A DNA stretch of 28,589 bases from Candidatus Eiseniibacteriota bacterium. Lineage in GTDB: Bacteria > Arandabacterota > Arandabacteria > JAGLYR01. A model generated the notes under the pieces. The model was not told the origin of the DNA. It saw only the letters and a list, made by a program, of their open reading frames with translations, and made no database searches. Position numbers and translations under genes: made by a program. The DNA lies in NCBI GenBank assembly GCA_023132135.1, contig JAGLYR010000025.1, positions 1 to 28,589 on the forward strand, written 5' to 3'. This document shows positions 6,538 through 27,028 of this stretch, piece after piece; position 1 is the stretch's first letter; each line of letters opens with the position of its first letter.

Positions 6538-8139
6538 ATGAGCAACAAATGCCACATAAAGATACCAGGTTCACTGCACTTCGCTCGTGCGATCCTCCGA
6601 GTGCGTAGGGACATGAGTGATGACTGGTTTCCCGATCCTATCCGTTTCAAGGACCAGGCAAACCAGAAGTCGGTCCTCTGGGGCTCTGTAGCTCCAGGAC
6701 AGACCTGTGTTGTCAGGCGTTCGGAGGTTTTCAACGTTCCAAAGGTGGGATTCACCCTTAGGTATGCGCTTCAGGGGATGTTTTCCGAGCGTGTTTTCTA
6801 CCAGGCTCTTGTTGACGCGATCGCCCCTCTCTATGATCCGCTTCTGGACCCACGAGTGTACAGCTGTCGGATTCGCTCCGGGCGGTCTGACTACATGTTC
6901 TGCCCTCCTGTTGTTGCGTGGCGGGACTTCATCGCGGATGCACGCGAGACCCTCTCCTCCCGCAGGGGAGTACTCCTGAAAACAGACATTCAGAATTACT
7001 ATGAGTCAATCTCAATTGGTCTGCTCGCTTCCGAGCTCCTAAGGATTGGGCCAAAGCGCACGGTCCAGGAAACTGTCGACACTACCCAGCAGCTTCTATT
7101 GCAGTGGTGTCCCTATGGGGACCACGGAATACCTCAGAACAGGGATGCATCCGCGTTTCTGGCGAACGCCTTCCTGAAATCCGTGGACAACACCATGGTG
7201 AGAAGGTATGAGCACTACTTCCGCCTAATGGATGATATTGTCATTGTCTGCCGAGACCATCTTCACGCAAGGAAGGCATTGCGTGACCTCGTCATAGCAC
7301 TCCGCCGTCTCCGGCTGAACGTCAATACCAAGAAGACTCACATCCTATCCTATGATGACGAAAAGGTGGACGAGCATCTTCCTCCACCGAACCGCAGGAT
7401 CGAGGAGATTGATACCCTACTCAAGTCCCGCCGTCTGAGCACCTTCAAACGCGGACTCCCTCTGCTGCGAGAGTTCACGCTCGAGACACTGCAGTCAGAT
7501 GATGTCGACGAGACGGCATTGAGATTTTGCCTAAATAGACTGGAGCGGATCAACAGGGTTAGGGGGATTCGCATTGCATGGAAGCCGGTCACGGAGGCAC
7601 TGTTGCCTCAGCTTCGCGATAGACCTTGGACTACAGCCCCAATCACTAAGTATCTTGTCACGGCGCCCATCGACTCGTCACAGCTAGGCGAGGTTGAGCG
7701 GGTGGTCTTGGATCGGCATGTTGCGATATACGAGTGGCAGAACTACCACCTCTGGATCGCACTTGGCTATCATGAGATCAAGACCAAAGCCTTGCTTCAC
7801 AGGGCTAGAGCAATGACCAGAACAAGAGGCCCTGTGCCAACTCGAGCAGCGGCGATACTCTACTTGGGCAAGTGCGGTACCTCGGCAGACAGGGAGAAGA
7901 TAGCTAAGGAGTATGGGAGAGTCAGATCCCCTTTCCTTAAGAGAGCAATTCTGCTTGCCACACAGAAGACACCGAAGTCAACCGCCAGGAGGCAAATATT
8001 GCCCTACTTGACTCCAGAGACGAGGTCCACGCATCAGTGGCTCACTAGAAGAGAAGCAAGTCCGATTTACTACGTGAAGCCTTATCCTCTGACTCCTAGC
8101 GAGTTCTTCGACGATCTGCCGTCAATATCAGGTCCATAA
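6538..8139 (+). CDS. Reverse transcriptase of the Abi/unknown-group (defence) type with helical C-terminal domain
   Basis: A 533-aa protein with the RT palm motifs in order: LLKTDIQNYYESI (catalytic Asp150), GIPQNRDASAFLANAFLKS (motif B region), FRLMDDIVIV (catalytic Asp232-Asp233, with Leu-Met replacing the usual Tyr-x) and LRRLRLNVNTKKTHIL. No maturase, endonuclease or X domain of a group II intron follows. Instead residues from about 290 to the end are helical and repeat-like (AILYLGKCGTSADREKIAKE...FLKRAILLAT), as in HEAT-like tails of defence RTs. It starts three bases after the membrane-protein gene and its stop overlaps the polymerase start as TAATG. Template and primer are unknown; a neighbouring non-coding RNA or protein priming are both possible. 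Catalytic residues look intact. Confidence 0.88.
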   Translation: MSNKCHIKIPGSLHFARAILRVRRDMSDDWFPDPIRFKDQANQKSVLWGSVAPGQTCVVRRSEVFNVPKVGFTLRYALQGMFSERVFYQALVDAIAPLYDPLLDPRVYSCRIRSGRSDYMFCPPVVAWRDFIADARETLSSRRGVLLKTDIQNYYESISIGLLASELLRIGPKRTVQETVDTTQQLLLQWCPYGDHGIPQNRDASAFLANAFLKSVDNTMVRRYEHYFRLMDDIVIVCRDHLHARKALRDLVIALRRLRLNVNTKKTHILSYDDEKVDEHLPPPNRRIEEIDTLLKSRRLSTFKRGLPLLREFTLETLQSDDVDETALRFCLNRLERINRVRGIRIAWKPVTEALLPQLRDRPWTTAPITKYLVTAPIDSSQLGEVERVVLDRHVAIYEWQNYHLWIALGYHEIKTKALLHRARAMTRTRGPVPTRAAAILYLGKCGTSADREKIAKEYGRVRSPFLKRAILLATQKTPKSTARRQILPYLTPETRSTHQWLTRREASPIYYVKPYPLTPSEFFDDLPSISGP

Positions 8140-9758
8140 TGCGCCCAAGCTACCTTCTTTTCAGAAACCCCGTTCACGAACTAGGGCAGGAGCTGGCCGG
8201 TTTCCTGCACGCCCCTGAGGGCAGGGGCGGTTTCGTGAACGTGGTTGATCTGTGCGGAGAGTCCGGGCCAATTGTCGTATTGGGATTGCCAGATCTGGCA
8301 GATGGTCTGAGCGGGAAGACACTCTCGATCACAACGACCTTCGTGGACCTATGTCTCGCCAAGCGCTTGGTGGTTGGTCAGAAGCATCAGGCCAGAGCAG
8401 GAGCAGAGCCGTGGAGCCAAGGGAAGTTGCTTGCCCAGGCAGGCATTTCCGAATCGTACATTGAGCAGTACTTGTGCTGGACAACCGGTGCTTGCACTGA
8501 GGAAGTCGATGCTGCACTTTTGCAGACAGTACTACAGTCTATAGCCACTAGCCTCCAGAAGCTGTTGCGTGAGCTCGACGATGAGCTCCGGACAAAAGGC
8601 GAACGGGAGCGTTTCTTTGATATTGAAGTACCGGTGTCTAATGCCATGCTACGCCAGCAAGTGAGGGGTTTGAGTATCGACCACGTTCGTCTCGAGGGCG
8701 TGCTCGAGCACACCAGCTCATCACTGGCACGGGTGCGGCGTCAATTGAGAATGCGCTTCAATCTTACGAACCCCTCAGACCGCTCGATGGTGAGGGCGCG
8801 ATTGGCTGAGGCTGGCTTCGACAAGGCAACCAATCGGGCTCTCCGAGAGGGAGACAAGGGATGGCTTGAGCTATCGGGGCTTCGTCACGATCTGCCGCGG
8901 CTACTTCACGAGCATCAGACCTTTACGAGAGACAAGTCCACTCTGCTGAAGCTGGGAGCCTTTGGCAGCACTGAGGTCTTCCCGCGCTACAACACGCAAG
9001 GGACAATCACGGGAAGAATCGTGATAACTGAACCAAGTCTGCAGAATCTAAGGAGGGAAAGTCGGGAGGTGATCAGCCCGAGGCCAGGAAGAGTGCTCCT
9101 ATATCCCGATTTCAGCCAATACGAACCTGGCATCTTGGCAGATGAGTCAGGTGATGAGCAATTGATCAGTGACTACAACCGAGGCGACCTGTACGAGCCA
9201 CTGAGCATCGCCTTGTTTGGCGACCGAGCACACAGAAAGCACGCAAAGACGATCTTCATTGCCTTCTGCAATGGCATGACTGAAGAGGGACTTGTTGAGA
9301 TCGCCTCAAGAGCCTCGGGAAGACCGAATGAAGAGTGCCGGGACATCGTAGCCCAGTTCTTTGGCAAGTATATGCGTCTTCGAGATTGGACCGAAGATCT
9401 GTTCGGAGAACTTGAGAACCAAGGACGAGTAGGTTCTCGGCTGGGGAACTACCGCTATCTTGGGGCAGGGGCAGCACCCGGCAGCAGAGCTAGGAACAGG
9501 TGGGCCATCAGCCAAAGAATTCAGGGCACCGCATCGCTGATCCTCAAGCGCGTGATCATTAGGCTGGACAAAGAGGCGCCGGACTGCTGGCCCGTCCTTC
9601 CGATGCATGACGCGCTGCTCTGCGAGGTCCCGAAATCGAGCGCGAGCGAGATCCGGTCTCTCTTGGGAGAGCTGTTTATTTCTTGCTTTCGCGAGGAATG
9701 CCCAAGTGTGGATCCTCGAGTGCACTTCGAGGGATCCGGTTTCGTCGTGGACGGCTAG
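8139..9758 (+). CDS. Divergent family-A (Pol I-like) DNA polymerase paired with the RT
   Basis: A 539-aa protein. Its C-terminal two thirds carry the family-A core: DIEVPVSNAMLRQQVRGLSI (Pol I thumb entry), YNTQGTITGRIVITEPSLQN, motif A PDFSQYEPGILADESGD (Asp324, Glu329), motif B RKHAKTIFIAFCNGMT (Arg366, Lys370) and motif C PVLPMHDALLCEV (His490, Asp491). Both metal-binding aspartates are kept. At conserved O-helix and motif C positions Ile374 stands where Phe is usual, Asn378 where Tyr is usual, and Ala492 where Glu is usual. The first 150 residues show no 3'-5' or 5'-3' exonuclease motifs. The one-base overlap with the RT gene argues for a joint function, such as second-strand synthesis on the RT product. 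It is too short and too divergent to be housekeeping Pol I. Plasmid or phage origin is an alternative source. Confidence 0.88.
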   Translation: MRPSYLLFRNPVHELGQELAGFLHAPEGRGGFVNVVDLCGESGPIVVLGLPDLADGLSGKTLSITTTFVDLCLAKRLVVGQKHQARAGAEPWSQGKLLAQAGISESYIEQYLCWTTGACTEEVDAALLQTVLQSIATSLQKLLRELDDELRTKGERERFFDIEVPVSNAMLRQQVRGLSIDHVRLEGVLEHTSSSLARVRRQLRMRFNLTNPSDRSMVRARLAEAGFDKATNRALREGDKGWLELSGLRHDLPRLLHEHQTFTRDKSTLLKLGAFGSTEVFPRYNTQGTITGRIVITEPSLQNLRRESREVISPRPGRVLLYPDFSQYEPGILADESGDEQLISDYNRGDLYEPLSIALFGDRAHRKHAKTIFIAFCNGMTEEGLVEIASRASGRPNEECRDIVAQFFGKYMRLRDWTEDLFGELENQGRVGSRLGNYRYLGAGAAPGSRARNRWAISQRIQGTASLILKRVIIRLDKEAPDCWPVLPMHDALLCEVPKSSASEIRSLLGELFISCFREECPSVDPRVHFEGSGFVVDG

Positions 9759-12425: not shown

Positions 12426-12455
12426 TTGTCACCCACCCTTCTGTTCTACTACAAT
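12426..12455 (+). promoter_or_regulatory. Putative sigma-70-like promoter of the DISARM-like operon
   Basis: TTGTCA and TACAAT are separated by 18 bp, a good match to the bacterial consensus. Because the -10 box overlaps the ATG at 12454, translation from that ATG is implausible, and this supports the downstream start at 12514. The block is shared with 5051-5107 in front of the RT cassette. Confidence 0.55.
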
Positions 12456-12513
12456 GAGGTGTTTTCGTCCAGATGAGAACAGCTTGGTGGCGAGAGGGGG
12501 AGCCGGGCGACCG

Positions 12514-15500
12514 ATGGATGTATTTCAGCTTCGCGAGCGGCTGGTACGAGATTACCAGTCCTACATCAGCAGCTTCATCCAGATTCGGGATTCACGCATC
12601 AAGGGAACGGTCGATGAGGCACTCGACGGTGGTCTCCTCTGGCCGGATCCCCTCATCCAACTCAATCCCGCCTTCGAGCCCGGCAAATGGATCGATGAGC
12701 TCGTGGACGAAGGTCTCCTGCACCAAGAATGTCGCCGGATCTTCCGTATCAAGCCCCAGCCCCCCAAAGAGAGCAAGGGGCTACGGCTCCACAGGCACCA
12801 GGAAGAAGCAATACGGGCTGCCCAAGAGGGCCACAACTACGTCCTCACCACGGGAACGGGTTCAGGGAAGAGCCTCGCCTATATCATCCCGATCGTTGAC
12901 TATGCGCTCCGCAGAGGGAGCGGGGGCGGCATCAAGGCCATCGTCGTCTATCCGATGAACGCCCTGGCCAACAGCCAGGAGGGCGAGCTCCGAAAGTTCC
13001 TGTGTCAGGGCTATCCTGATGGAGTTGGTCCCATTACGTTTGCACGGTACACCGGGCAGGAATCCGACGAGCGGAAACAGGCGATCATTGCAGATCCACC
13101 CGACATTCTCCTGACGAACTACGTAATGCTCGAGTTGCTCCTAACTCGCCCCCAGGAGAAACCTCTGGTGAAGGCAGCCAGGGGCCTGCAGTTCCTGGTC
13201 CTGGACGAGCTCCACACCTACAGAGGGCGGCAAGGCGCAGATGTGGCTATGCTGGTGCGCAGATGCCGCGAATCTTTCGAGGCGGAGAGCCTACAGTGTG
13301 TGGGCACGTCCGCCACCTTGGCCGGCGTCGGATCATACGAACAACAGCGGGCTGAAGTCGCGGGTGTTGCATCGATGATCTTTGGTGCCCCTGTTCTGCC
13401 TCAACACGTAACTGGCGAGACCCTCCAGCGGGCGACCGACGAGCCGGACTTGGCAGACACGACTTTCCTGGCCAACCTGAAGAAGAGCATCGAGAATCCA
13501 GAAAGCTCCCGCCCGTCGGATTTCCAGAGTTTCCTCGCCAACCCCCTATCCGCCTGGATCGAGAGCACTTTCGGTCTCACGAAGGAGGAGGGAACGGGAA
13601 GACTCATCCGGAGCGCTCCCCGAAGCATCACGGGAGAACAGGGAGCGGCCAAGGAACTCGGCGAGCTCACCGGTCTCCCTGAGTCCCAGTGTACCGACAG
13701 GATCGGACAGCATCTCATTGATAGCTACGAGCACGGAGTCGATCCGGCGACGGAATCCCCTGCTTTCGCCTTCCGCCTTCACCAGTTCGTGAGCCGCGGA
13801 GACACCGTCTATGCCTCCCTTGAGTCTGAACCCCAGCGCTACGTCACGGTCTATGGCCAGCAGTATGTCCCTGGAGACCGGACCCGTGTGTTGCTACCTC
13901 TCGTCTTTTGCCGCGAGTGCGGTCAGGAATACTACTGTGTGCGGGCGACACGCGGCGTTGGAGACAAGCACCGTGTGTTCGAACCGCGCGAGCTGGGCGA
14001 TCGACTCAGCGATGAGGACAGCGAAGCGGGATTCATCTACGCGAGCGCGGAAGGCCCCTGGCCTGTTGATCTCGAAGAGGTTCTCACTCGGCTCCCTGAA
14101 GACTGGCTGGAAGAGTACAGGGGCAAGGTCCGGGTCCGGAAGAGCAGGCAGAAGTACCTGCCGCAAGCCGTCAGAGTTACCACGGATGGCCGGGAAGCCG
14201 AACAGGGGCTCGCGTGTCAGTACATCCCACGTCGGTTCTCTTTCTGCTTGCACTGCGGAGTATCCTACGGGGTCCAGGCGTCATCCGACTTCGCGAAGCT
14301 CACCACTCTGAGCATGGAGGGGCGGAGCACTGCCACGACCATCCTCAGTCTGGCAGTGATCCGATACCTCCGGGACGAGAGCACCTTGGCCGACGAGGCC
14401 CGGAAGCTCCTGAGTTTCACCGACAATCGCCAGGATGCCTCGCTCCAGGCGGGGCACTTCAATGACTTCGTGGAAATTGGCCTGCTTCGGGCGGCCCTCT
14501 TCAAGGCCGCACATGATGCAGGCCCGGACGGGCTGAGATACGACACGTTGGTCGAGAAGGCTTTCGATGCTCTGGACTTGCCGCTCGACTTCTATGCCAG
14601 CGATCCGGCAGTCCTGTACAGAGCTCTGGAGGACACTAAGGGTGCTCTTCGTGCGGTGCTTGGGTACCGGCTCTATCGGGACCTGAAGCGGGGCTGGCGA
14701 GTCACACTCCCGAACCTGGAACAGTGCGGGCTTCTGGAGATTGAGTATGATTCGCTGTCTGAGGTATGCCGGGACGAAAGCATCTGGAAAGGTCTTCACC
14801 CCGCGCTGGCCTCTGCTTCTCCGACCACCAGAGAGGCGATTGCCAAAACCCTCCTGGACTACGGGCGACGAGAGTTGGCGATAAAGGTTGAGTACCTGGA
14901 TCGCACAAGACAGGAGCGCATTCAACAGCAGAGCTGGCAGTTCCTGAAAGAACCCTGGGCGATCGATGAAGAGGAACGGATGGAGCACGCGGCAATTCTC
15001 TATCCTCGGTCGCGCCGGGCCAAAGACTACGCGGGCAATGCGTTCCTCTCGGGCCGGTCTGGTTTCGGGCAGTATCTCCGCAGGTCCTCCACATTCCAGG
15101 ATTACGGCCAGAGACTGACCCTGGATGAGAGCGAGGAGCTCTGCCGTCAGCTCCTGGAGGTGTTGAGGATTGTAGGCCTTACCGAGGCCGTTGCTGAGGA
15201 GAAGGGGCCGGATGGCACGCCCGGCTACCAGATTCGCGCTTCCGGCTTGATCTGGAGGGCCGGTGACGGCACCCGACCCTTCTGGGACCCGATCCGGGTT
15301 CCCCGTCAGTCTGAGGAAGGCGGCAGCACGAATCCGTTCTTCAAAGAGATGTACAAGGGCATTGCGCTCAAGGGAAAGGGACTGGAGGCTCGGGAGCACA
15401 CGGCCGCCGTTCCATACGACGTTCGGATGGAACGGGAGGAACGCTTCCGTGAAGGGCGACTTCCCGTTCTCTACTGCTCACCGACAATGGAACTTGGGGT

Positions 15501-17709
15501 CGACATCGCGGAGCTCAACGTTGTCAATCTTCGGAACGTGCCTCCTACCCCGGCCAACTACGCCCAGCGTAGCGGCCGAGCGGGGCGGGGTGGAAGAAAT
15601 GCTCAACCCGCTCTCGTGTTCTCCTACTGCTCCACGTTCAGCTCTCACGACCAGTACTTCTTCAAACGTCCCGGCTTGATGGTGATGGGGGCAGTGACGC
15701 CGCCGCGGCTGGACCTGGCGAACGAGGATCTGATTCGGGCACATATCCATGCAATCTGGCTGGCCGAGACGAACCTCCCGCTTGGGAGTTCCCTGATCGA
15801 GATCCTCGATGTCGACGGGACAGAGCCGACTTTGCAGCTGAGGGACCACATCCGGGATGCCCTGAAGGCGATGGGCCCCAGGCAGAAGGCTCGTGAACGG
15901 GCGGAGCGTGTATTGGCCAGCATGCAAAGTGAGCTTGAGGAAGGCGACTGGTACAGCGCCGGCTGGCTGGATGAAGTCCTGGGACAGGTGTCCCTGCATT
16001 TCGAGTGGAGCTGCGATCGCTGGCGCAACCTGTACAGGGCGGCACTCAGGCAGCGGACGCTCCAGCACTCGATTATCAGCGACGCTTCGAGACCAGCAGA
16101 TGAGAGAAGAAAGGCCAAGAGGCTTCGCGCCGAGGCCGAGTCCCAGATTGAGCTTCTGACCGAAGCCCGTCGGGCAATTCAGTCCGATTTCTACAGCTAC
16201 CGCTACTTCGCAAGTGAAGGGTTCTTGCCGGGCTACAGTTTCCCGAGGCTTCCGCTCTCGGCATACATCCCAGGCAGGCGGATCAAAACCGGCGACAGTG
16301 AGTACATCTCCAGACCCCGATTCCTGGCGATTTCTGAGTTCGGGCCGAGAGCCATCCTGTACCACGAGGGTTCCCGGTATCGAATCGAGAAGGTCTTCCT
16401 CCCCGTTGAGGATCGGGCGGAGGATGGTCTGGCCACCGGATCGGTCAAGCTTTGCAGCGAGTGTGGATACCTCCACCCGATCAGCCAGGGAGACGGTCCG
16501 GACCTGTGCGATCGGTGCGGCGAGACCCTGGAAATCCGGCTCCGGGATATGTTCCGACTCCAGAATGTGAGTACGAGGCGTGCAGAGCGGATCAGTTCCG
16601 ACGAGGAGGAGCGGCGGCGGATCGGCTACGAAGTGGTCTCGTGTGTGCGATTTGCGACCAGGGATGGTCGGCCTTCCTATCGGACCGCTGTAATGGATCT
16701 GGAAGGTGAAGAAGCCGCGACCCTTGCCTATGGACACGCGGCCACCCTGTGGCGTGTGAACTTGGGCTGGAGGCATCGAGCGGTCAAGCACAAGTACGGA
16801 TTCATCCTCGACACAGAGAGAGGGTACTGGGCGAGGAATGAGTCCGACAGTGAGGATGACGCCCAGGATCCCCTTCCTGCCCGTACCCGGCGGGTGATCC
16901 CTTATGTGGAGGACAGTAGGAACTGCCTCCTCTTCGAGCCTTCAGGCCAACTGTCTGGAATCGAGATGGCTTCGCTGCAGGCTGCCCTCAAGAAAGCGAT
17001 CCAGATTGAGTACCAGTTAGAGGATTCCGAGCTTGCGGCTGAACCGCTCCCGTCGCGGGACAATCGCAGAATTCTCCTCTTCTACGAGGCTGCCGAGGGG
17101 GGAGCGGGTGTCCTGCGCCGTCTCGTGGATGACCCGGAATCCATGCAGCGGATCTCCCGGAGGGCTCTTGACCTGTGCCACTTCGACGCGGATACCCTGG
17201 ACGACCTTCGTCGCGCACCCGGGGCCAGAGAAGACTGCGAGGCCGCCTGCTACGACTGCATGATGAGCTATTCGAACCAGATGGACCACAGGTTGCTGGA
17301 CCGGCACGCGATACGGGACTTCCTCCAGAAACTCGGGGCGGCCAGACTTCAGAACTCGCCCGGACCACTTCCCCGAGCCGAGCATCTCAGCCGGTTAATG
17401 CGCCAGTGCGCGTCGGATCTGGAGCGGGCCTGGCTCCAGTTCCTGGAGGACCACGACCTGGCGCTCCCGGCGAAAGCTCAAGTTCTGATCGAAAACTGCA
17501 GGACGCGGCCCGATTTCCTGTACCACCCTGCCCAGGTGGCGGTCTACGTAGATGGACCCCACCATGACTATCCGGACCGGCAGAACCGGGACCAGGCCCA
17601 GACGGAGTGCATGGAGAACCTGGGCTACGTTGTGGTCCGCTTTGGACACAGGGACGATTGGAAGGGAATCGTGGAACAATTCCCGGAGACCTTTGGGAGG
17701 ATCTCATGA
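12514..17709 (+). CDS. YprA/DrmA-like superfamily 2 helicase with DUF1998-type region and C-terminal nuclease-like domain
   Basis: A 1731-aa protein, far longer than YprA/MrfA helicases (about 750 aa). Helicase motifs: Walker A TGTGSGKS (Lys119), VVYPMNALANSQ, DELH box at Asp231, GTSATLAG near 266, LLSFTDNRQDASLQAGHFND, SPTMELGVDIAELNVVNLRN and QRSGRAGRGGRN near 1018. Cysteine pairs (FCRECGQEY, FCLHCGVSYG, CSECGY...CDRCGE) suggest zinc ribbons. The DUF1998-type signature EAAEGGAG...CEAACYDCMMSYSNQ lies near 1525-1590. The last 70 residues (RPDFLY with Asp1667, VYVDGPHH with Asp1680, VVRFGHRDDW) resemble Vsr/DUF559-type nucleases. The ATG at 12514 is preferred over 12454, which lies inside the -10 box. 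The stop overlaps the next start as ATGA. DISARM splits helicase and DUF1998 into DrmA and DrmB; here they appear joined, which is inference. Confidence 0.85.
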   Translation: MDVFQLRERLVRDYQSYISSFIQIRDSRIKGTVDEALDGGLLWPDPLIQLNPAFEPGKWIDELVDEGLLHQECRRIFRIKPQPPKESKGLRLHRHQEEAIRAAQEGHNYVLTTGTGSGKSLAYIIPIVDYALRRGSGGGIKAIVVYPMNALANSQEGELRKFLCQGYPDGVGPITFARYTGQESDERKQAIIADPPDILLTNYVMLELLLTRPQEKPLVKAARGLQFLVLDELHTYRGRQGADVAMLVRRCRESFEAESLQCVGTSATLAGVGSYEQQRAEVAGVASMIFGAPVLPQHVTGETLQRATDEPDLADTTFLANLKKSIENPESSRPSDFQSFLANPLSAWIESTFGLTKEEGTGRLIRSAPRSITGEQGAAKELGELTGLPESQCTDRIGQHLIDSYEHGVDPATESPAFAFRLHQFVSRGDTVYASLESEPQRYVTVYGQQYVPGDRTRVLLPLVFCRECGQEYYCVRATRGVGDKHRVFEPRELGDRLSDEDSEAGFIYASAEGPWPVDLEEVLTRLPEDWLEEYRGKVRVRKSRQKYLPQAVRVTTDGREAEQGLACQYIPRRFSFCLHCGVSYGVQASSDFAKLTTLSMEGRSTATTILSLAVIRYLRDESTLADEARKLLSFTDNRQDASLQAGHFNDFVEIGLLRAALFKAAHDAGPDGLRYDTLVEKAFDALDLPLDFYASDPAVLYRALEDTKGALRAVLGYRLYRDLKRGWRVTLPNLEQCGLLEIEYDSLSEVCRDESIWKGLHPALASASPTTREAIAKTLLDYGRRELAIKVEYLDRTRQERIQQQSWQFLKEPWAIDEEERMEHAAILYPRSRRAKDYAGNAFLSGRSGFGQYLRRSSTFQDYGQRLTLDESEELCRQLLEVLRIVGLTEAVAEEKGPDGTPGYQIRASGLIWRAGDGTRPFWDPIRVPRQSEEGGSTNPFFKEMYKGIALKGKGLEAREHTAAVPYDVRMEREERFREGRLPVLYCSPTMELGVDIAELNVVNLRNVPPTPANYAQRSGRAGRGGRNAQPALVFSYCSTFSSHDQYFFKRPGLMVMGAVTPPRLDLANEDLIRAHIHAIWLAETNLPLGSSLIEILDVDGTEPTLQLRDHIRDALKAMGPRQKARERAERVLASMQSELEEGDWYSAGWLDEVLGQVSLHFEWSCDRWRNLYRAALRQRTLQHSIISDASRPADERRKAKRLRAEAESQIELLTEARRAIQSDFYSYRYFASEGFLPGYSFPRLPLSAYIPGRRIKTGDSEYISRPRFLAISEFGPRAILYHEGSRYRIEKVFLPVEDRAEDGLATGSVKLCSECGYLHPISQGDGPDLCDRCGETLEIRLRDMFRLQNVSTRRAERISSDEEERRRIGYEVVSCVRFATRDGRPSYRTAVMDLEGEEAATLAYGHAATLWRVNLGWRHRAVKHKYGFILDTERGYWARNESDSEDDAQDPLPARTRRVIPYVEDSRNCLLFEPSGQLSGIEMASLQAALKKAIQIEYQLEDSELAAEPLPSRDNRRILLFYEAAEGGAGVLRRLVDDPESMQRISRRALDLCHFDADTLDDLRRAPGAREDCEAACYDCMMSYSNQMDHRLLDRHAIRDFLQKLGAARLQNSPGPLPRAEHLSRLMRQCASDLERAWLQFLEDHDLALPAKAQVLIENCRTRPDFLYHPAQVAVYVDGPHHDYPDRQNRDQAQTECMENLGYVVVRFGHRDDWKGIVEQFPETFGRIS

Positions 17710-20546
17710 GTTTCCCCGTCGGCGCTCTTGTGAGAGCGAGGGGCCGCGAGTGGGTCGTGCTCCCGGAGTCGGACGAGGACATGCTGGTCCTCCGCCCCCT
17801 CGGCGGCACCGATGACGAGGTCACGGGGATCTACGTACCTCTGGAGTCTGTCGAGCCGGCCACATTCGATCTTCCCGACCCCACAGCAGTTGGAGATTTC
17901 CGGTCCTGTCGGCTGTTGCGGGATGCCGTTCGGCTGACTTCCCGCTCCGGCGCCGGGCCGTTCCGTTCATTTGCTCGGCTGGCGGTCGACCCCAGGCCCT
18001 ACCAGCTCGTACCGCTCCTGATGGCGCTCAAGCTGGACCCCGTACGGCTTCTGATTGCCGATGATGTGGGCATTGGGAAGACTGTGGAGGCGTGCCTCGT
18101 GGCCCGCGAGCTCCTGGATCGCGGGGAAGTCCGCCGCCTGGCCATTCTGTGCCCCCCTCATCTTGCGGAGCAGTGGCAGGGGGAACTCAGCTCGAAGTTC
18201 CACGTGGACGCGGAGCTGGTGCTCTCGAGCACTGCAGCCCGCCTGGAACGGCATTGCCGTCTCGGCCAGTCGCTGTTTGACCTCCATCCGCATGTGATCG
18301 TGTCCACCGAGTTCATCAAGTCCGATCGGCGTCGAGACGAGTTTGCGCGGACATGCCCGGAGCTCGTGATCGTGGACGAGGCGCATAGCTGCGCGTTCGG
18401 CTACGAGCACCGCGGCGGGAGGCACCAGCGCCATCGCCTGGTGAGCCAGCTCGCTTCCGATCCAGACCGCCATCTGCTCCTGGTGACGGCCACGCCTCAC
18501 AGCGGAAAAGAAGAAGCCTTCCGGTCGCTGCTGTCTCTCCTGAACCCGGATTTCTCGTCCCTGCCCTCGACCCTGACCGGTCCGGAGAACGAACAGCACC
18601 GCCGCCGCCTGGCCGCTCACTTTGTCCAGCGACGCCGGGCAGACATCCGCCAGTATGCCGACGCCGATACCCCTTTCCCCAGCCGGGAAGAGGCCGAGGA
18701 GACGTACGCCCTTTCGGATGAGTACCGGCAGTTCTTCGACCGCATCCTTCGATACACACGCGAGCGGGTCGAGGACCCTGAGGGAGGACAGCACCGCCAG
18801 CGCGTCCGCTGGTGGTCAGCGCTCAGTCTCCTCCGCTCGGTTGGATCCAGCCCTGCAGCGGCAGCGGAGACACTCCGCAATCGGACACCTGCAGCGGAGT
18901 CGGAGGGTCTGGAAGAGGCCGATGAAATCGGCCGCCGAACCGTCCTCGACGTTGATATCGATGACCAGGCCGAGGCTATCGACGTGGCTCCCGGGGGCGA
19001 CACCGGCGAAGAGACCGACGAGGCCCAGAAAACACGGCGGCAACTGCTGGATCTGGCAAGGGAAGCTGAAGGGCTCCGCGGGGACATGGACGCCAAGCTC
19101 CTGAAGGCAGTCCGCCTCCTCAAGGGCCTTCTCAAGGACGGATACCGCCCCATCGTCTTCTGCCGGTTCATTCCTACATCGGAGTACGTGGCCGAGGAGT
19201 TGCGGAAACGGCTTCCGAAGAAAGTCGACGTGGTCTCGGTCACGGGCCTTCTACCCCCGGCGGATCGGGAAGCCAGAATCCTTAAGCTGGCGAAGTCGCC
19301 CAAGCGGGTCCTGGTGTGCACGGACTGTCTGAGCGAAGGCATCAATCTTCAGGAGGATTTCGATGCGGTCATGCACTACGATCTTCTCTGGAATCCCACC
19401 CGTCACGAGCAGCGGGAAGGCCGTGTGGATCGCTTCGGGCAACCCCGCGAAACGGTACGAGTGCTGACCTACTACGGTGCGGACAACCCGATCGACGGCA
19501 TCGTTCTGGACGTTCTTCTTCGGAAGCACAAGACAATTCGAAGTTCCTTGGGGATCTCCGTACCCGTTCCCGTCGGCACCGACACTGTGATCGAGGCCAT
19601 TTTCGAGGGTCTGCTGATGCGATCCCGCGGGGGAAGCGGCGATCAGGCTCTTCTTCCGGGGTTGGAGGAATACCTGAAGCCCAAGAAGGAAGATCTGTAC
19701 ACGCAATGGGACGATGTGGCCGACCGGGAGAAGCGGTCGAGAACGATGTTCGCCCAGGAACTCATCAAGGTGGAAGAGGTCAAGCGGGAACTGGACGAAA
19801 CACAGGCTGCTCTGGGTTCCGTGGAAGACGTTGAGGCTTTCGCCGTGGAGGGGCTCCGCTCCTACGGCGCCGTTGTATCGAAGTCCGACGGCCTCCTGGA
19901 TTTCGACCTCCAGGAAGTCCCGAGGGCACTCAGGGATACCATTCGGGTGCCCGATCGATTCCAGGCCCGCTTCAGTCTACCTGTCGACGAAGGACAGATC
20001 TATCTCAGCCGCACACATCCGATGGTCGAGGGTCTTGCATCCTACGTGATGGACGCCGCCCTCGATCCTGAGCTCGAGGGCATAGCCAAGCGTGCCGGGG
20101 CCATCCGAACCCAGGGCGTGGCGAGCCGCACGACGCTTCTGCTGGTCCGCTTCCGCTACGACGTTGTCACTTCCGATCAATCCGGCGAGCGGAGTCAGCT
20201 TGCAGAGGAGTGCCGGGTCCTCGCTTTCGAGGGTTCCCCTTCGGATGCCAACTGGCTGCCTGAAGTGGAAGTCGAGGCGCTTCTTGATCTCAAACCCTCG
20301 GCCAACGTCTCCCGCGAGCAGGCAACTACCTTTGTCCAACGCGTTGTGGACGGAGCGGATGCCCTTCGCCCTCACCTCGAGGCAACGGCTGAGCGGCGAG
20401 CCGAGGATCTCCTGGACGCTCACCAGCGGGTGCGCCTGGCCGCCAGGATCAAGGGGGTCCGGTATCGTGTGGAGCCCCAGCTTCCCACCGACGTCCTCGG
20501 CATCTACGTCTGCCTCCCGGATGGCGAGGGGGGGCAAAACCGATGA
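17706..20546 (+). CDS. SNF2-like helicase, DrmD-like
   Basis: A 946-aa protein. After an N-terminal module (FPVGALVRARGREWVVLPES) come the SNF2-type motifs: ADDVGIGKTVEA (Lys125), VDEAH (Asp224), TATPHSGKEEAF, then the second lobe with RPIVFCRFIPTSEYVAEELR, CTDCLSEGINLQEDFDAVMH and QREGRVDRFGQPRE near 569. An acidic insertion separates the two lobes (about 390-450). The C-terminal third is unassigned. The start at 17706 has GGGAGG upstream and overlaps the preceding stop; an earlier in-frame ATG lies inside the preceding gene and is disregarded. The combination with an adenine methylase and a DUF1998 helicase points to DISARM class 1, where DrmD is the SNF2 component; that assignment rests on memory of the family. 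It likely translocates on DNA during foreign-DNA recognition. Confidence 0.88.
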   Translation: MSFPVGALVRARGREWVVLPESDEDMLVLRPLGGTDDEVTGIYVPLESVEPATFDLPDPTAVGDFRSCRLLRDAVRLTSRSGAGPFRSFARLAVDPRPYQLVPLLMALKLDPVRLLIADDVGIGKTVEACLVARELLDRGEVRRLAILCPPHLAEQWQGELSSKFHVDAELVLSSTAARLERHCRLGQSLFDLHPHVIVSTEFIKSDRRRDEFARTCPELVIVDEAHSCAFGYEHRGGRHQRHRLVSQLASDPDRHLLLVTATPHSGKEEAFRSLLSLLNPDFSSLPSTLTGPENEQHRRRLAAHFVQRRRADIRQYADADTPFPSREEAEETYALSDEYRQFFDRILRYTRERVEDPEGGQHRQRVRWWSALSLLRSVGSSPAAAAETLRNRTPAAESEGLEEADEIGRRTVLDVDIDDQAEAIDVAPGGDTGEETDEAQKTRRQLLDLAREAEGLRGDMDAKLLKAVRLLKGLLKDGYRPIVFCRFIPTSEYVAEELRKRLPKKVDVVSVTGLLPPADREARILKLAKSPKRVLVCTDCLSEGINLQEDFDAVMHYDLLWNPTRHEQREGRVDRFGQPRETVRVLTYYGADNPIDGIVLDVLLRKHKTIRSSLGISVPVPVGTDTVIEAIFEGLLMRSRGGSGDQALLPGLEEYLKPKKEDLYTQWDDVADREKRSRTMFAQELIKVEEVKRELDETQAALGSVEDVEAFAVEGLRSYGAVVSKSDGLLDFDLQEVPRALRDTIRVPDRFQARFSLPVDEGQIYLSRTHPMVEGLASYVMDAALDPELEGIAKRAGAIRTQGVASRTTLLLVRFRYDVVTSDQSGERSQLAEECRVLAFEGSPSDANWLPEVEVEALLDLKPSANVSREQATTFVQRVVDGADALRPHLEATAERRAEDLLDAHQRVRLAARIKGVRYRVEPQLPTDVLGIYVCLPDGEGGQNR

Positions 20547-23500
20547 AGGCCCGCGACCTCTTCACCACAATTCGGACGGAAGGCGGGCTCCTACCTGCCG
20601 ACCTCCTGGAGCGGATCTCCCGCGGTGACGGTGATCTCAAGGGTCTGGATCCGAAGTCCTACCACCTCGCCGCTGATGAACGCCTCAATGAGATGATCAG
20701 CCGATCCTGGAACCGGATGGTCGGCGCGTGGTCCGGGTTCCGGGCAGCATCGGAGAAGCTTCCGGAGACTGACCTGGGCACCAGCTCCACGCGTGAGCGC
20801 TGGCTGCTGGTCCTGTTCCAGGAACTGGGCTACGGGCGGCTGAGAGCCGCGTCAGCCGTTGAGATCGAGGGCAAGAGCTACCCGATCTCGCATTTGTGGG
20901 ATCCCAGCCCCATCCATCTTGTGGGTTTTCGAGTTGACCTGGACCGGCGGACACCCGGCGTTGCAGGAGCTGCCCGTTCAAGCCCTCACAGCCTGGTTCA
21001 GGAGTTTCTGAACCGGAGCGATGACCACCTGTGGGGGTTCGTGTCTAACGGACTCCGGATGAGGATCCTGCGGGACAACTCCAGCCTCACGCGCCAGGCC
21101 TATGTCGAGTTCGACCTTGAGGGCATGATGGAAGGCGAGGTCTTCGCGGACTTCGTCCTCCTCTGGCTTCTCTGTCATCAGTCGAGGATCGAAGCCGAGG
21201 ACGCCAGGCCTGAGACATGCTGGCTGGAGCGCTGGGCGCAGGCCGCCCAGGAACGGGGAGTCCGCGCTCTCGATACGCTCCGCAAGGGTGTTGAAGCCGC
21301 GATCAAGGCGCTGGGGAGTGGGTTCCTCGATCATCCCGGCAATAATGATCTCCGTGAAAAGCTCCGGTCGGGGACCCTCTCCACCCAGGACTACTACCGG
21401 CAGCTGCTCCGCCTCGTCTACAGGCTTCTCTTCCTCTTCGTGGCGGAAGACAGGGATCTCCTCCTCCACCCGGAGTCCGATGCCAAAGCCCGAGAACGGT
21501 ACGGCCGGTTCTACTCCACGGCGAGACTGAGGCGAATGGCGGAGCGCCTGCGGGGCACCAAACACGCGGATCTGTTCAGGGGATTCCGGATTGTGATGGA
21601 GAAGCTGGGAAGCGACGGAGGCTGTCCCGCCTTCGGCCTCCCGGCTCTCGGCAGCTTCCTCTGGTCCAGGGAGGCAATCGCCGATCTGGAAACCTGCGAC
21701 ATCTCGAACCACGGCATCCTGGAGGCGATCCGGGCTCTTGCATTCACCATCGAAGACAAAATCTTCCGCTCTGTGGACTTCAAGAACCTGGGTTCTGAAG
21801 AACTGGGGAGCGTCTACGAATCTCTTCTCGAACTCCATCCGGAGATCAACACCGACAGCGCCACCTTCGAACTCAGAACCGCCAGCGGCCACGAGCGAAA
21901 GACGACGGGTTCCTACTACACGCCATCCAGCCTCATCCAATGCCTGATGGATTCGGCCCTGGAACCTGTCCTGGACGAGGCAGTGAAGAAGCCCGACCCC
22001 AGGCAGGCCATTCTCGATCTCAAGGTCTGCGACCCGGCCTGTGGCAGCGGTCACTTCCTGATCGCCGCAGCCCACCGGATGGCACGCCGTCTGGCCGCAA
22101 TCGAAACCGGCGACGAAGAGCCCGCTCCCGAGGCTATGCGTCATGCGCTCCGCCAGGTCATCGGACACTGCATTTACGGTGTCGACCTGAACCCGATGGC
22201 CGTCGAGCTATGCAAAGTTGGCCTCTGGCTCGAGTCCTTAGAACCCGGGAAGCCTCTCTCCTTCCTTGATCACCGTATTCTGTGTGGGAACAGCCTGCTG
22301 GGAGCCACCCCGGCGCTCTTGGCCAAGGGCATCCCCAACGGTGCATTCAAGGCCATTGAGGGTGATGACAAGGAACTCGTGAAGGCATTCCGCAAGCAGA
22401 ACCGCGACGAGCGGAGAGGCCAGACGACCATGTTTGCCGAACTGAAAGTTGCCGAGTCGCTCGTGCCCTACCGGACTCTGAGCAACGGCTTGGTCAATCT
22501 CGACCACATTGACGATTCGACCATTGAAGGCATCCACCAGAAAGAGGATCTGTACCAGACACTGTCCCAGTCAAAGAGCCACCGGCGTGCGCGCCTGCTT
22601 GCGGATGCCTGGTGTGCGGCTTTCGTGTGGAAAAAGACGAAGCAATTCCCCTACCCGATCACCGAAGGCGTATTCCGCCAGATCGAGAAACACCCTGAAG
22701 AGACATCCTCCTGGATGGTGGCCGAGATCCAGCGCCTCACGGAGCAGTACCAGTTCTTCCATTGGCACTTGAGGTTTCCAGATGTGTTCCAGGTTCCGGA
22801 AAAGGGCGGGAGGCCAGATGATGAAGAACAGACCGGATGGAGCGGCGGTTTTGACTTCGTCGGTGGCAATCCGCCGTGGGAACGGGTCAAATTGCAGGAG
22901 AAAGAGTGGTTCGCTGGGAGGCGGCCTGACATTGCCCGCGCCCCAAACGCGGCCGCTCGGCGGAGAATGATAGCGGCCCTTGAGCATGAAGATCCGGCGA
23001 TCCTCACCGAGTTTCTTAACGACCGGCGAAAGGCGGAGGGCGAGAGTCACTTGGTGCGAAACACCTCCCGCTATCCACTCTGCGGTCGGGGGGATGTCAA
23101 CACATACGCAGTGTTTGCCGAGCTCAAGCGTGGAATTATCAACCCCTCGGGCCGGGTCGGTTGCATTGTCCCGTCAGGTATTGCTACTGACGATACGACC
23201 AAGTTCTTTTTCCAAGACCTCATGGAGACGCGGGCACTCGCGAGTCTGTACGACTTCGAGAACCGAGCCGCGATCTTCCCCGGTGTCCATCGGAGCTACA
23301 AGTTCTGCCTGCTCACGTTGATTGGTTCCGAGTGCCCGGCGACGAAGGGCGCTGAGTTCGTCTTCTTCGCCCATGCCGTCGAGGAGCTGTACGACCCCGA
23401 GCGCCGCTTCACCCTCTCGGCTGAGGACATCGCGCTCCTCAACCCCAACACTCGCACTTGCCCGATCTTCCGATCGCGTCGCGATGTTGAATTGAACAAG

Positions 23501-25147
23501 CACATTTGCGCCCATACACCAGTGCTCGTTCCGTCTCAGGGTGCTTCTCGCTGGAATGCCTACTACATGCGTCTGATTGACCTCGACGACCACGCGGAAG
23601 ACATCCGCTTCCCCTGGCAAGACAAGGGCGAGAGCTGGAACACTCCCCTTTACGAGTCGAAGCTGGTCAACCTGTTCGACCACCGATTCGCGACGTTTGA
23701 GGGAGTGGACCGAGCCAAATGTGCCAACGGCCAGGCGCGGGGCACCACTATCGAGGAACGTACAAACCCGTCCTTCCAAGTCGTCACCCGGTATCTCGTC
23801 CGCGACGAATTGGCCCGACAGCTATTCGCGAAATACCAGTCCCATACGCAGAGGTGGCTGCTTGTCTGGCGGGATGTTGCCCGCGCCACAGATGAACGAA
23901 CGTCGATCGCGGCAGCCATCCCCAGAGCCCTTGCGACACGGAGTAATCCCTCACTGGGATTCTCACCAGCGAAAGAGGGCTACTTCCTGCTTGCAGGTCT
24001 ATCGTCGTTCGTCTTTGACTACCTTGCCCGACAGAAGGTCGGTGGAATTCACTTCAACTGGCAGGTGCTGGCCCAATTACCGGTAGCCCCTCCGTCAGTG
24101 GCTGCGAGCGTGTCGCGTGAGTTCATTCGCTCCCGCGCGCTGGAACTGACCTACACAGCGTGGGACCTCGAATCGTTCGCGCAGGACTGCGGCTGGTCCG
24201 GACCACCGTTCCGGTGGGACGAGGAGCGCCGTTTCCTGCTCCGTTGCGAGCTGGACGCTGCCTTCTTCCACCTCTACCTATCAGCCACATCAGACTGGCA
24301 ATGGAAACAAGCCCGCATTGCGGAGGGAGCAGTACGCGACGAAACCGCAGATGAGCTGGCAGAGTTGAAGAAGCACTTCCCGACCCCACGCGATGCCGTG
24401 GCCTACATCATGAACACCTTCTCCATCGTGAAGCGCAAGGACGAGAAGCAATACAGCGAGTACCGCACGAAGCGGGTGATCCTGGAGATCTACGACGAGA
24501 TGGCCGAGGCCATGCGCACAGGCAGGCCATACCAGACCCGCCTCAACCCACCCGCGGCTGATCCTCGTATTGCGCACCAGCCGAGACAGCGGGAACGGCC
24601 AGCGGCGCCAGCGCTGGTGCAACCTCGTCGAGTGGGCGCTCTCGATAAATCGCGAGTGTTGCTTCTAGCCACTCCGCGCTGGGAAGAGCGATACAGCACT
24701 TGCGTTCCCCGACTCGATCTCAAGATCGCCGCCGGTCTGTCCAGTGACCAGCAGCATCCCGACTTCAGGGAATGGGTCGAGGTGAATGCATCGCGCCTAC
24801 TTCGGAACGGGATGTTCGTGGCGCAGGTTGTTGGCCGGTCAATGGAGCCGCTGATCTCCGACGGCGCGTATTGCTTGTTTCAGTTCAAGGCACCGCACGT
24901 ATCCGACGGAATGGTGGCGCTCTTCGATCTCCAAGGGGTAACGGATCCAGAGTCGGAAGGGTGCTTCACTGTCAAGAGACTGAGATTGTCGGCGCGTCCG
25001 ACACCGGATGGGCCGCAACGGGTAGCCATGCTCGTCTCTGAGAACGCGGCCTTCGAGCCGATTCCGGTGGAGGAGGAGGGCGTGAGGATGGTGGCGGAGT
25101 TCTTGGAGGTCCTTCGCCCTTTGGATGATAGTGCTGGTGATGGCTAG
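20543..25147 (+). CDS. Eco57I-type N6-adenine DNA methylase fused to a C-terminal S24 (LexA/UmuD-like) peptidase
   Basis: A 1534-aa protein. Residues 1 to about 450 are a helical region typical of large Eco57I/PglX/DrmM methylases. Methylase motifs follow: [20 protein letters not shown] (Asp497), [20 protein letters not shown], and the catalytic NPPW at Asn776. After TGRPYQTRL and a linker (about 1340-1370), residues about 1375-1530 form an S24 domain. It has an Ala1397-Gly1398 pair, nucleophile Ser1433 in VVGRSMEP and Lys1478 in FTVKRLR. The 35-residue Gly-to-Ser spacing fits LexA and UmuD self-cleavage sites. The start overlaps the DrmD-like stop as ATGA, giving strict coupling. The methylase would mark self DNA or take part in recognition. 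The S24 tail could regulate it by self-cleavage under DNA damage, an inference. Plain DISARM methylases, as I know them, lack this tail. Confidence 0.88.
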
Positions 25148-25440: not shown

Positions 25441-25513
25441 TCCTGAAAGGCGGAATGGCCGGGTGAGGGGCATCTAGGGGATGTGTTCCGAAGCAGTCCA
25501 AGGAGGGCTACTG

Positions 25514-27028
25514 ATGGCGATCATGCTCAAGAGACAGATCAGTGATGACGAAAAGGCGGAGATTCTGAAGATGCATGGCCGCAAGTGCTTCGCCACTGGC
25601 CACACGATACCGGAGGGTGACCCGGTACACTTCGACCATATTCGAGCGTTTGGTACGGCGGGTCTCACGGAGATTCAGAACATCGCCCCGATGTGTGAAC
25701 AGCACAACCTTCAGAAGGGACAGCTACCCCTGGAAGACTTCAGAGTGAAGCTGCGCCTGCAGGAGTTCTTCACGGGGGGAGACTCTCAGACTTTGAGACA
25801 CATGCTTGAGTATCTCCAGCTAGCTGGTGAACTAGACGAATTTGGTCAGTCGGTTTCTGCTACTGAGAATGCCGACACAATCGTGATTGAATCCGCGCAC
25901 TGGACTCGTGAGTATACGCTGTACGAATGCGCGACTACCGGATGGAAGTACTTCTACGCTACACTCCCAGTCCAGTTACTTGATAGCGATGATGAGAAGG
26001 ATCCGAACATGGGCCTCCAGCCTCGATACCTGATCTTTGACAAGGTGTTCAAGATGTACAGGCACTTTCAGATGCATCCTGTGTTGCAGCCATCTATCGG
26101 ACGAATCGTCGGGAGCCAAATCAGGTTATTCGACGGACAGCACAAGATTGCAGCTCTATTGTGGACAGGTCGAAGGGAGTTTAAATGCAAGATCTACCTG
26201 GCTCCAGAACTAAGGCTGCTGAACCAGACGAATATCGCGGCGCACGACAAGTTCGCGCAGACACGGTTCTACTCTTCTATCATGGTAATGAAGTTGGGCA
26301 GTCAATTCGGGGCTGATTTCGAGGAATACAAGAGTCTGGAAGATGGTGAACCGAAGAGCGAAGCCGGTCTCATGGCATTCTTGGACCGCAAGGACAACCA
26401 GTCACTGACCAAAGCCGAGCGCAACCGACAGTTCCGCAGCTACCTCTACAACTCCGTACTGGATGCTCCAGATAACAAGTGCAGACAGTTGCTTTCAGCC
26501 AGCAACCGCAGCACAGATGAGAGGCCCCTCACGATCGATATGCTGAGCAAGTCCGTTTTCCAGAGTTTTCTCTATCGCCATCCGGTCGAGGAAGACATGG
26601 CAACTGATGCATACAGGCGGCAGAGTGAGATCGAAAACACAGTCGCGCTGATGAACATGCTTCACGACCACGCACTCGGCAGCTGGGATGCCAAGGCGAG
26701 CCCAGCTGACTCGAATCAGCGCAGACTTAGTCGAATGTTTAGATCGAAGTCGATCATGGCATGGAGCGAACTTCTGCGAGATGCCGTTTGTGGGAAGCTC
26801 GACCTCCAAGACACTGAGGACAGGGCCAGGCCGTTCTATCGTGATCTACGGCCCGAGCAGCTAGAGCAGATCAGCGCTGTTGTCGAACGTCTGGCCAAGT
26901 GGAAGTTCTGGCGTGCGCCAGCCAAGGACGAGATTGACCGAATCCTGGCCGACAACAAGAGCGCCGTGAAGGATTGGCTCAAGAAGCATGGCCTCACGAC
27001 TGGCTACCTAATGGGCGCACCTGAGTAG
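25514..27028 (+). CDS. HNH endonuclease fused to a DGQHR (DndB-like) domain
   Basis: A 504-aa protein. Residues about 20-70 form an HNH nuclease fold: CFATGHTIPEGD, FDHIRAFGTAG (Asp41-His42), Asn56 and CEQHNLQKG (His64-Asn65). Near residue 207 the sequence FDGQHKIAALLWTG matches the DGQHR signature of DndB-related and ParB-like proteins; the remaining C-terminal half is helical and unassigned. ATG 25514 is chosen because AAGGAGGG lies eight bases upstream; an in-frame ATG at 25481 has a poorer site. It follows the DISARM-like operon by about 370 bases and precedes the cyclase-like gene by 36 bases, with which it is probably co-transcribed. A likely role is a nuclease with its own DNA- or ligand-sensing module. 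Whether it belongs to the DISARM-like system or is a second system in the same cassette is open. Confidence 0.75.
   Translation: MAIMLKRQISDDEKAEILKMHGRKCFATGHTIPEGDPVHFDHIRAFGTAGLTEIQNIAPMCEQHNLQKGQLPLEDFRVKLRLQEFFTGGDSQTLRHMLEYLQLAGELDEFGQSVSATENADTIVIESAHWTREYTLYECATTGWKYFYATLPVQLLDSDDEKDPNMGLQPRYLIFDKVFKMYRHFQMHPVLQPSIGRIVGSQIRLFDGQHKIAALLWTGRREFKCKIYLAPELRLLNQTNIAAHDKFAQTRFYSSIMVMKLGSQFGADFEEYKSLEDGEPKSEAGLMAFLDRKDNQSLTKAERNRQFRSYLYNSVLDAPDNKCRQLLSASNRSTDERPLTIDMLSKSVFQSFLYRHPVEEDMATDAYRRQSEIENTVALMNMLHDHALGSWDAKASPADSNQRRLSRMFRSKSIMAWSELLRDAVCGKLDLQDTEDRARPFYRDLRPEQLEQISAVVERLAKWKFWRAPAKDEIDRILADNKSAVKDWLKKHGLTTGYLMGAPE

Follow-up and report, generated by a model that had tools for sequence, protein, structure and literature searches.

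The window (the whole stretch of 28,589 nucleotides analyzed here, a contig of a Candidatus Eiseniibacteriota bacterium) encodes a DNA methylase fused at its C-terminus to a Peptidase_S24 domain of the LexA/UmuD type. Relatives of this domain are attached to several families of restriction and defence enzymes. Its catalytic and scissile residues are conserved almost without exception, its modeled fold is that of LexA, its phylogeny indicates transfer between enzyme families, and the host genome encodes both RecA and ClpX. We propose that the domain is a mobile, catalytically competent cassette that makes these enzymes conditionally self-destructing through RecA-stimulated cleavage and a ClpXP degron ending in -AA, a proposal whose chances we judge to be evenly balanced. 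A more specific version has a real but somewhat lesser chance of being correct. According to it, the cassette is transplantable, has been grafted repeatedly and responds to DNA damage by cleavage that bares a LexA-like -AA ClpXP degron, so that autoimmunity control would reside in the enzyme itself and be independent of LexA.

Three overlapping genes encode a YprA/DruE-like helicase, an SNF2 helicase and, last, the methylase. The open reading frame of the methylase (1534 residues) has no internal stops. The features of the trio and of the tail are as follows.

12454-17709, + strand: YprA/DruE-like DEAD helicase, 1751 aa, with MZB and a C-terminal DUF559 (Vsr-like) nuclease domain, and no S24 tail (DEAD, Helicase_C, MZB and DUF559 matches; DruE profiles to E 1e-88).
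17706-20546, + strand: BrxHII/RapA/DrmD-like SNF2 helicase, 946 aa counted from the ATG overlapping the preceding stop (SNF2-rel_dom and Helicase_C; DpdE, E 3e-265; DrmD, E 1e-83).
20543-25147, + strand: PglX/DrmMI-type (Eco57I) N6-adenine DNA methylase with a C-terminal S24 domain, 1534 aa (Eco57I, E 1.4e-16; N6_Mtase, E 1e-8; Peptidase_S24; DrmMI, E 2.7e-68).
20543-24577, + strand: methylase body, residues 1 to about 1345, ending where tail-less homologues end (compare ..YQTILDPPPGDPRVALRE* in locus L178).
24578-24682, + strand: Pro/Arg-rich linker, residues about 1346-1380, recognized by sequence (the tail model opens with a block of pLDDT 56).
24683-25147, + strand: putative S24 (LexA/UmuD-type) self-cleavage module, residues about 1381-1534 (PF00717; AlphaFold model; LexA, CI and UmuD folds).
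24731-24736, + strand: predicted cleavage site Ala1397-Gly1398, in the context LKIAA/GLSS (tail alignment).
24839-24841, + strand: predicted nucleophile Ser1433 (VVGRSMEP; Ser in 101 of 101 tails).
24974-24976, + strand: predicted general base Lys1478 (FTVKRL; Lys in 100 of 100 tails).

Judging by domain profiles, the trio matches ARMADA type I in its content (YprA-like, BrxHII-like and PglX-like proteins), in gene order and in the C-terminal Vsr-like nuclease of the YprA-like protein (DUF559 at residues 1643-1731, E 2.2e-6), but differs from it in the S24 tail of the methylase (PMC12458937). The main text of that report contains none of the terms S24, LexA, UmuD, peptidase or protease. Relatives of DrmD and DrmMI are present in the window, but the assignment to DISARM class 1 (drmD, drmMI and drmA with drmB and drmC) fails: the NCBIfam DISARM_DrmD profile scores 322 bits against a cut-off of 610, and the protein of the YprA type resembles DruE and has a nuclease fused to it. 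No separate drmB or drmC was seen adjoining the trio. The trio also occurs without the tail in Nocardioides and Streptomyces plasmids, and in Nocardioides pNOCA01 it is directly followed by an AAA ATPase and McrC (L008:13981-17890, + strand). Elsewhere in the window, a reverse transcriptase (UG9-small DRT profile, E 1.5e-120) and then a family A DNA polymerase (RTasPolA, E 1e-102) are encoded at 6538-9758 (+ strand); together they form a DRT defence system of the UG9 type close to the ARMADA-like trio. The methylase is followed closely, at 25481-27028 (+ strand), by a gene for a 515-aa protein that has a DGQHK motif and matches HNH weakly.

Comparison with homologues shows that the S24 tail is an addition to the methylase body. 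The homologous methylases of L178 and L196 end at ..YQT(I/R)LD(P/L)PPGDPR.. with no S24 domain after it; the window methylase has the equivalent of this end, then the Pro/Arg-rich linker and then the S24 domain. Most homologues of the window methylase lack an S24 tail. In a set of 386 diverse genomes no methylase homologue except the window's own had an S24 tail match, and some bore other C-terminal extensions. One window-type methylase (L181) has a different extension with a weak resemblance to SocA/Panacea; this match is not significant (E 0.18), and we dropped it as a parallel link to ClpXP. The view of the tail as a methylase-specific trait was likewise rejected, as most methylase homologues are without it and other enzymes bear one.

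The earlier note on this DNA had described an apparently active LexA/UmuD-type self-cleavage domain on a restriction-type methylase, and the Pfam profile, the fold and the conserved residues all support that description. PF00717 matches residues 1394-1518 of the whole methylase with E 3.3e-6 and the last 248 residues with E 1.4e-7 (31.7 bits, cut-off 23.3). In the 175-aa tail, which begins at methylase residue 1360, A38, G39, S74 and K119 correspond to Ala1397, Gly1398, Ser1433 and Lys1478, exactly where the note had placed them. The AlphaFold model of the tail has a pLDDT of 87 and a pTM of 0.83, and the block holding the predicted cleavage loop reaches a pLDDT of 92. When the model was compared with the PDB using Foldseek, the best 32 matches were all LexA, lambda CI or UmuD, several of them in complexes with RecA filaments. 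VIA-align gave Z-scores of 10-12 to LexA, CI and UmuD. A search of PDB sequences with the tail profile returned no match, though the fold match is clear. The tail is a genuine Peptidase_S24 domain with a predicted fold of the LexA type.

Where the earlier note presented the domain as a feature of the methylase, the latter turned out to be only one carrier of a widespread module. Scanning with the window tail alone found no relatives, the resulting patterns being too specific, but a three-tail alignment succeeded: using one genome per GTDB species, its profile retrieved at least 441 loci. Besides the window's own genome, 15 of the 386 diverse genomes (about 4%) have the module. The window's genome also contains a second copy, 39% identical, at the end of a type I HsdR. 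Among the loci studied, with carrier classes assigned by clustering and Pfam, the module is found on type I HsdR (48 loci), on YprA/DruE-like helicases of about 1975 aa with no detected C-terminal nuclease (20), on type ISP methylase-specificity proteins (8), on Schlafen-group-3/DUF2075 helicases (5), on window-type methylases (4), on type III-like helicases (4) and on ordinary HTH regulators (2). The tailed methylases include that of L086 (candidate division FCPU426), which is part of the same trio, and related ones in L060 (Planctomycetota; split by a frameshift) and, more distantly, in L033.

In the 386 diverse genomes, near-full-length matches to the module, at E below 1e-30, are set off from the usual LexA and HTH-S24 proteins, whose matches have E 2e-7 or weaker; a few truncated copies of the module score in between. 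Of 18 strong matches in frames of at least 249 aa, 16 lie within frames of 660-1994 aa. Based on the size of these carrier frames and on the gap to LexA and HTH-S24 scores, the tails constitute a distinct S24 subfamily, used mainly as an enzyme appendage. The tail tree requires at least 14 changes of carrier class across six classes (the minimum being 5), few of them forced by strong branches, and it indicates that the module has been transferred between enzyme families. We did not find S24 fusions to restriction or defence enzymes in the literature searched, which covered few subscription journals; the parts are known, and it is their combination that was not found there.

Several additional observations concern the surroundings of the module. 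The idea that the tail always sits on the last gene of an operon was not upheld, as a close co-directional frame occurs at 33 of 77 loci. A phage origin was also dropped: phage records gave no match at E 0.01, and of two IMG/VR loci one is an HsdR fusion. An HsdR-S24 protein of about 1200 aa (L198) lies on a contig classed as viral in IMG/VR. In the type ISP proteins of L053, L056 and L090 the S24 domain is followed by about 200 residues without a Pfam match. A gene for Peptidase_M78 (ImmA/IrrE-like) is located near HsdR in the HsdR-S24 operon at L082:5694-6938 and at 10 similar loci, and other HsdR-S24 loci have an AAA_21 ATPase nearby.

The residues expected to perform cleavage are nearly invariant across the tails. 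Ser is kept in 101 of 101 tails and Lys in 100 of 100, with a Ser-to-Lys distance of 45 in 97 of 99. Immediately ahead of the scissile bond, P2-P1 read Ala-Ala in 97 of 99 tails; taken separately, each position is Ala in 98 of 99, the exception at P1 being Cys. The residue after the bond (P1') is Gly in 93 of these tails, Ser in five and Thr in one. Such conservation excludes chance resemblance. Nor is that of Ser an artefact of a search pattern that itself contained Ser, since it is present in all 69 tails beyond the reach of the pattern. The earlier note had named homologues lacking Ser, Lys or the Ala-Gly pair as evidence against an active domain; its claim survived this comparison. On the other hand, its argument from UmuD-like spacing was dropped. 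The Gly-to-Ser distance in the window tail is indeed 35, as in UmuD, but the tail family ranges from 34 to 47, which makes this spacing undiagnostic.

The Ala-Ala pair that would form the new C-terminus of the enzyme shows stronger conservation than P1', and much stronger conservation than its counterpart in LexA. Ala at P2 occurs in 98 of 99 tails versus 26 of 45 sequences of a LexA set (Fisher p 1.6e-10, a value that takes related sequences as independent and therefore overstates the difference). A fairer figure is 15 of 16 for tails of less than 50% identity, a set more divergent (mean identity 0.38) than the LexA set (0.45). Shared ancestry may be a partial cause of this signal. The nearest HTH-S24 regulators (L013 and L023) also have AA before the cut, whereas more distant ones vary. 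Overall, the conserved residues make self-cleavage of the S24 tail likely. For the window tail the activity is probable with slightly less certainty than for the HsdR tails, because it is among the most divergent (end branch of 2.05 in the tail tree versus a median of 0.34).

One HsdR carries the module internally. In L092:9083-12778 (+ strand) it interrupts an HsdR that is complete in all other respects, sitting between nuclease and ATPase motor. In an alignment with the L073 HsdR, the insertion lies between positions 286 and 290 of the latter, directly ahead of the Walker A segment GVIWHTQGSGKS. The L073 protein shares 54-66% identity with that of L092 and has its module at the C-terminus. 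Cleavage in L092 would be expected to part the nuclease from the motor. This is a single case that could be an assembly chimera, though the frame is intact.

The genome of the window (G000, 96% complete) encodes RecA (E 3e-163) and ClpX (E 5e-183), and no canonical LexA was found in it at E 1e-20. Apart from the two enzyme tails, on the methylase and on HsdR, it has no clear S24 peptidase; a third PF00717 match (C232) resembles a signal peptidase more than LexA. Membership in the S24 family together with the presence of RecA makes RecA-triggered cleavage of the tail plausible. In the mechanism that we infer, RecA filaments formed on single-stranded DNA of damaged host DNA would stimulate cleavage, and Ser1433, activated by Lys1478, would attack the Ala1397-Gly1398 bond intramolecularly. 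The tail would be released, leaving a methylase that ends in -IAA; its relatives (HsdR, YprA/DruE, type ISP and type III-like enzymes) would be left with -(I/V/A)AA ends. In the ssrA and LexA signals the key element is a terminal -AA. The new end would act as a latent C-terminal ClpX signal, like that exposed by LexA autocleavage and that present on ssrA tags. The enzyme fragment would then be degraded or disassembled, and restriction would be turned down during repair of unmodified or damaged host DNA. The net result would be an on-board form of restriction alleviation. Two known processes offer precedents: LexA-like autocleavage exposes C-terminal ClpXP signals adjoining the cut (PMC10584840, PMC5742171), and in E. 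coli restriction alleviation ClpXP removes HsdR as a means of self-protection (PMC4231737, PMC11109961, PMC3874165).

The earlier note had allowed for detachment, inactivation or release. The direction that we favour is shut-off and self-protection, because the enzyme families share one plug-in module, because the L092 HsdR has this module before its motor, and because conservation of the site peaks at the residues that would form the new C-terminus. The opposite direction is an activation switch, in which the uncleaved S24 domain would keep the enzyme inactive or inactively assembled until RecA filaments induced by phage triggered its release. Phage infection can yield single-stranded DNA, the catalytic site is conserved in the tails, and S24 cleavage can activate, as in the conversion of UmuD to UmuD'. 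We nevertheless find activation unlikely. A single module on at least six enzyme families would hardly make a specific inhibitory contact with each, and its presence in differing positions is more in keeping with a general-purpose destruct tag than with specific autoinhibition. Furthermore, the body of the window family ends exactly like its tail-less homologues, which evidently manage without release, and in L092 cleavage would split the nuclease from the motor parts. The window itself presents a difficulty for shut-off: here it is the methylase that bears the tail, and losing only this enzyme could leave the host open to attack if the helicase-nuclease remained active. Whether methylase removal disarms or endangers the cell depends on how far the ARMADA helicase-nuclease needs the methylase. 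Phage protection by E. coli ARMADA type II has been shown experimentally, and mutation of the methylase NPPW motif abolished it (PMC12458937); on that basis, loss of the methylase would amount to shut-off. A further point against the proposal is that EcoKI restriction alleviation is ClpXP-dependent with no tail of this kind.

The trigger might also be something other than RecA, such as a partner peptidase, a phage protein or stress, or cleavage might occur in trans. One report describes IrvR, which is LexA-like, as an exception to the RecA rule that autocleaves outside the RecA paradigm (PMC7101444). The Peptidase_M78/ImmA-like gene near 11 HsdR-S24 loci and the lack of a detected LexA in the window's genome point the same way; however, the M78 gene is absent at most loci, none was seen beside the window trio, the genome encodes RecA, and the closest folds include RecA-filament complexes. 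We would give this reading little chance. It is quite improbable that the tail serves only for dimerisation or assembly, with cleavage incidental or absent. Restriction complexes are oligomeric and LexA-family S24 C-domains dimerise, but a purely structural domain should lose its catalytic residues, while Ser is lost in none of 101 tails, Lys in none of 100, and the scissile site is kept as well. A chance resemblance, or a regulator gene wrongly fused to the methylase during assembly or annotation, might be suspected, since the window tail is one divergent copy in a metagenome-assembled genome, and contigs of such genomes can be chimeric. Yet in L086, which belongs to another phylum, the trio recurs with this tail on its methylase, L060 and L033 are likewise tailed, the window's genome has a tail on HsdR too, and hundreds of similar fusions exist. 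With independent fusions already refuting it, we assign this explanation a negligible probability.

The proposed shut-off cassette combines properties of known systems. With LexA, UmuD and lambda CI the tail shares its fold, the Ser-Lys dyad, an Ala-Gly scissile bond upstream of Ser and probably intramolecular cleavage. It differs in being joined to restriction and defence enzymes rather than to a DNA-binding domain or a short arm, in a Ser-to-Lys distance of 45 instead of 37, and in an almost fixed Ala at P2. The residues before the cut, [AVI]AA, are such as LexA can have, and autocleavage would bare a ClpX-recognised C-terminus as it does in LexA and CI (PMC10584840, PMC5742171), but the cargo is a restriction or defence enzyme of 600-1900 aa and not the DNA-binding domain of a repressor. 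As in ClpXP-dependent alleviation of EcoKI, a restriction subunit would be removed on damaged or unmodified host DNA (PMC4231737, PMC11109961). In EcoKI, however, HsdR is targeted while translocating, and its degron was sought and not found (PMC4231737), whereas the tailed enzymes would have both trigger and degron built in.

It has long been asked how a cell prevents its restriction and anti-phage enzymes from turning on its own DNA when that DNA is damaged or unmodified. The S24 module, which is widespread, contains every part of the LexA switch and is present on HsdR, ARMADA, type ISP and type III-like enzymes, suggests a simple answer that is built into the enzyme. If this is true, RecA as a co-protease would act not only on repressors and UmuD but also on defence enzymes.
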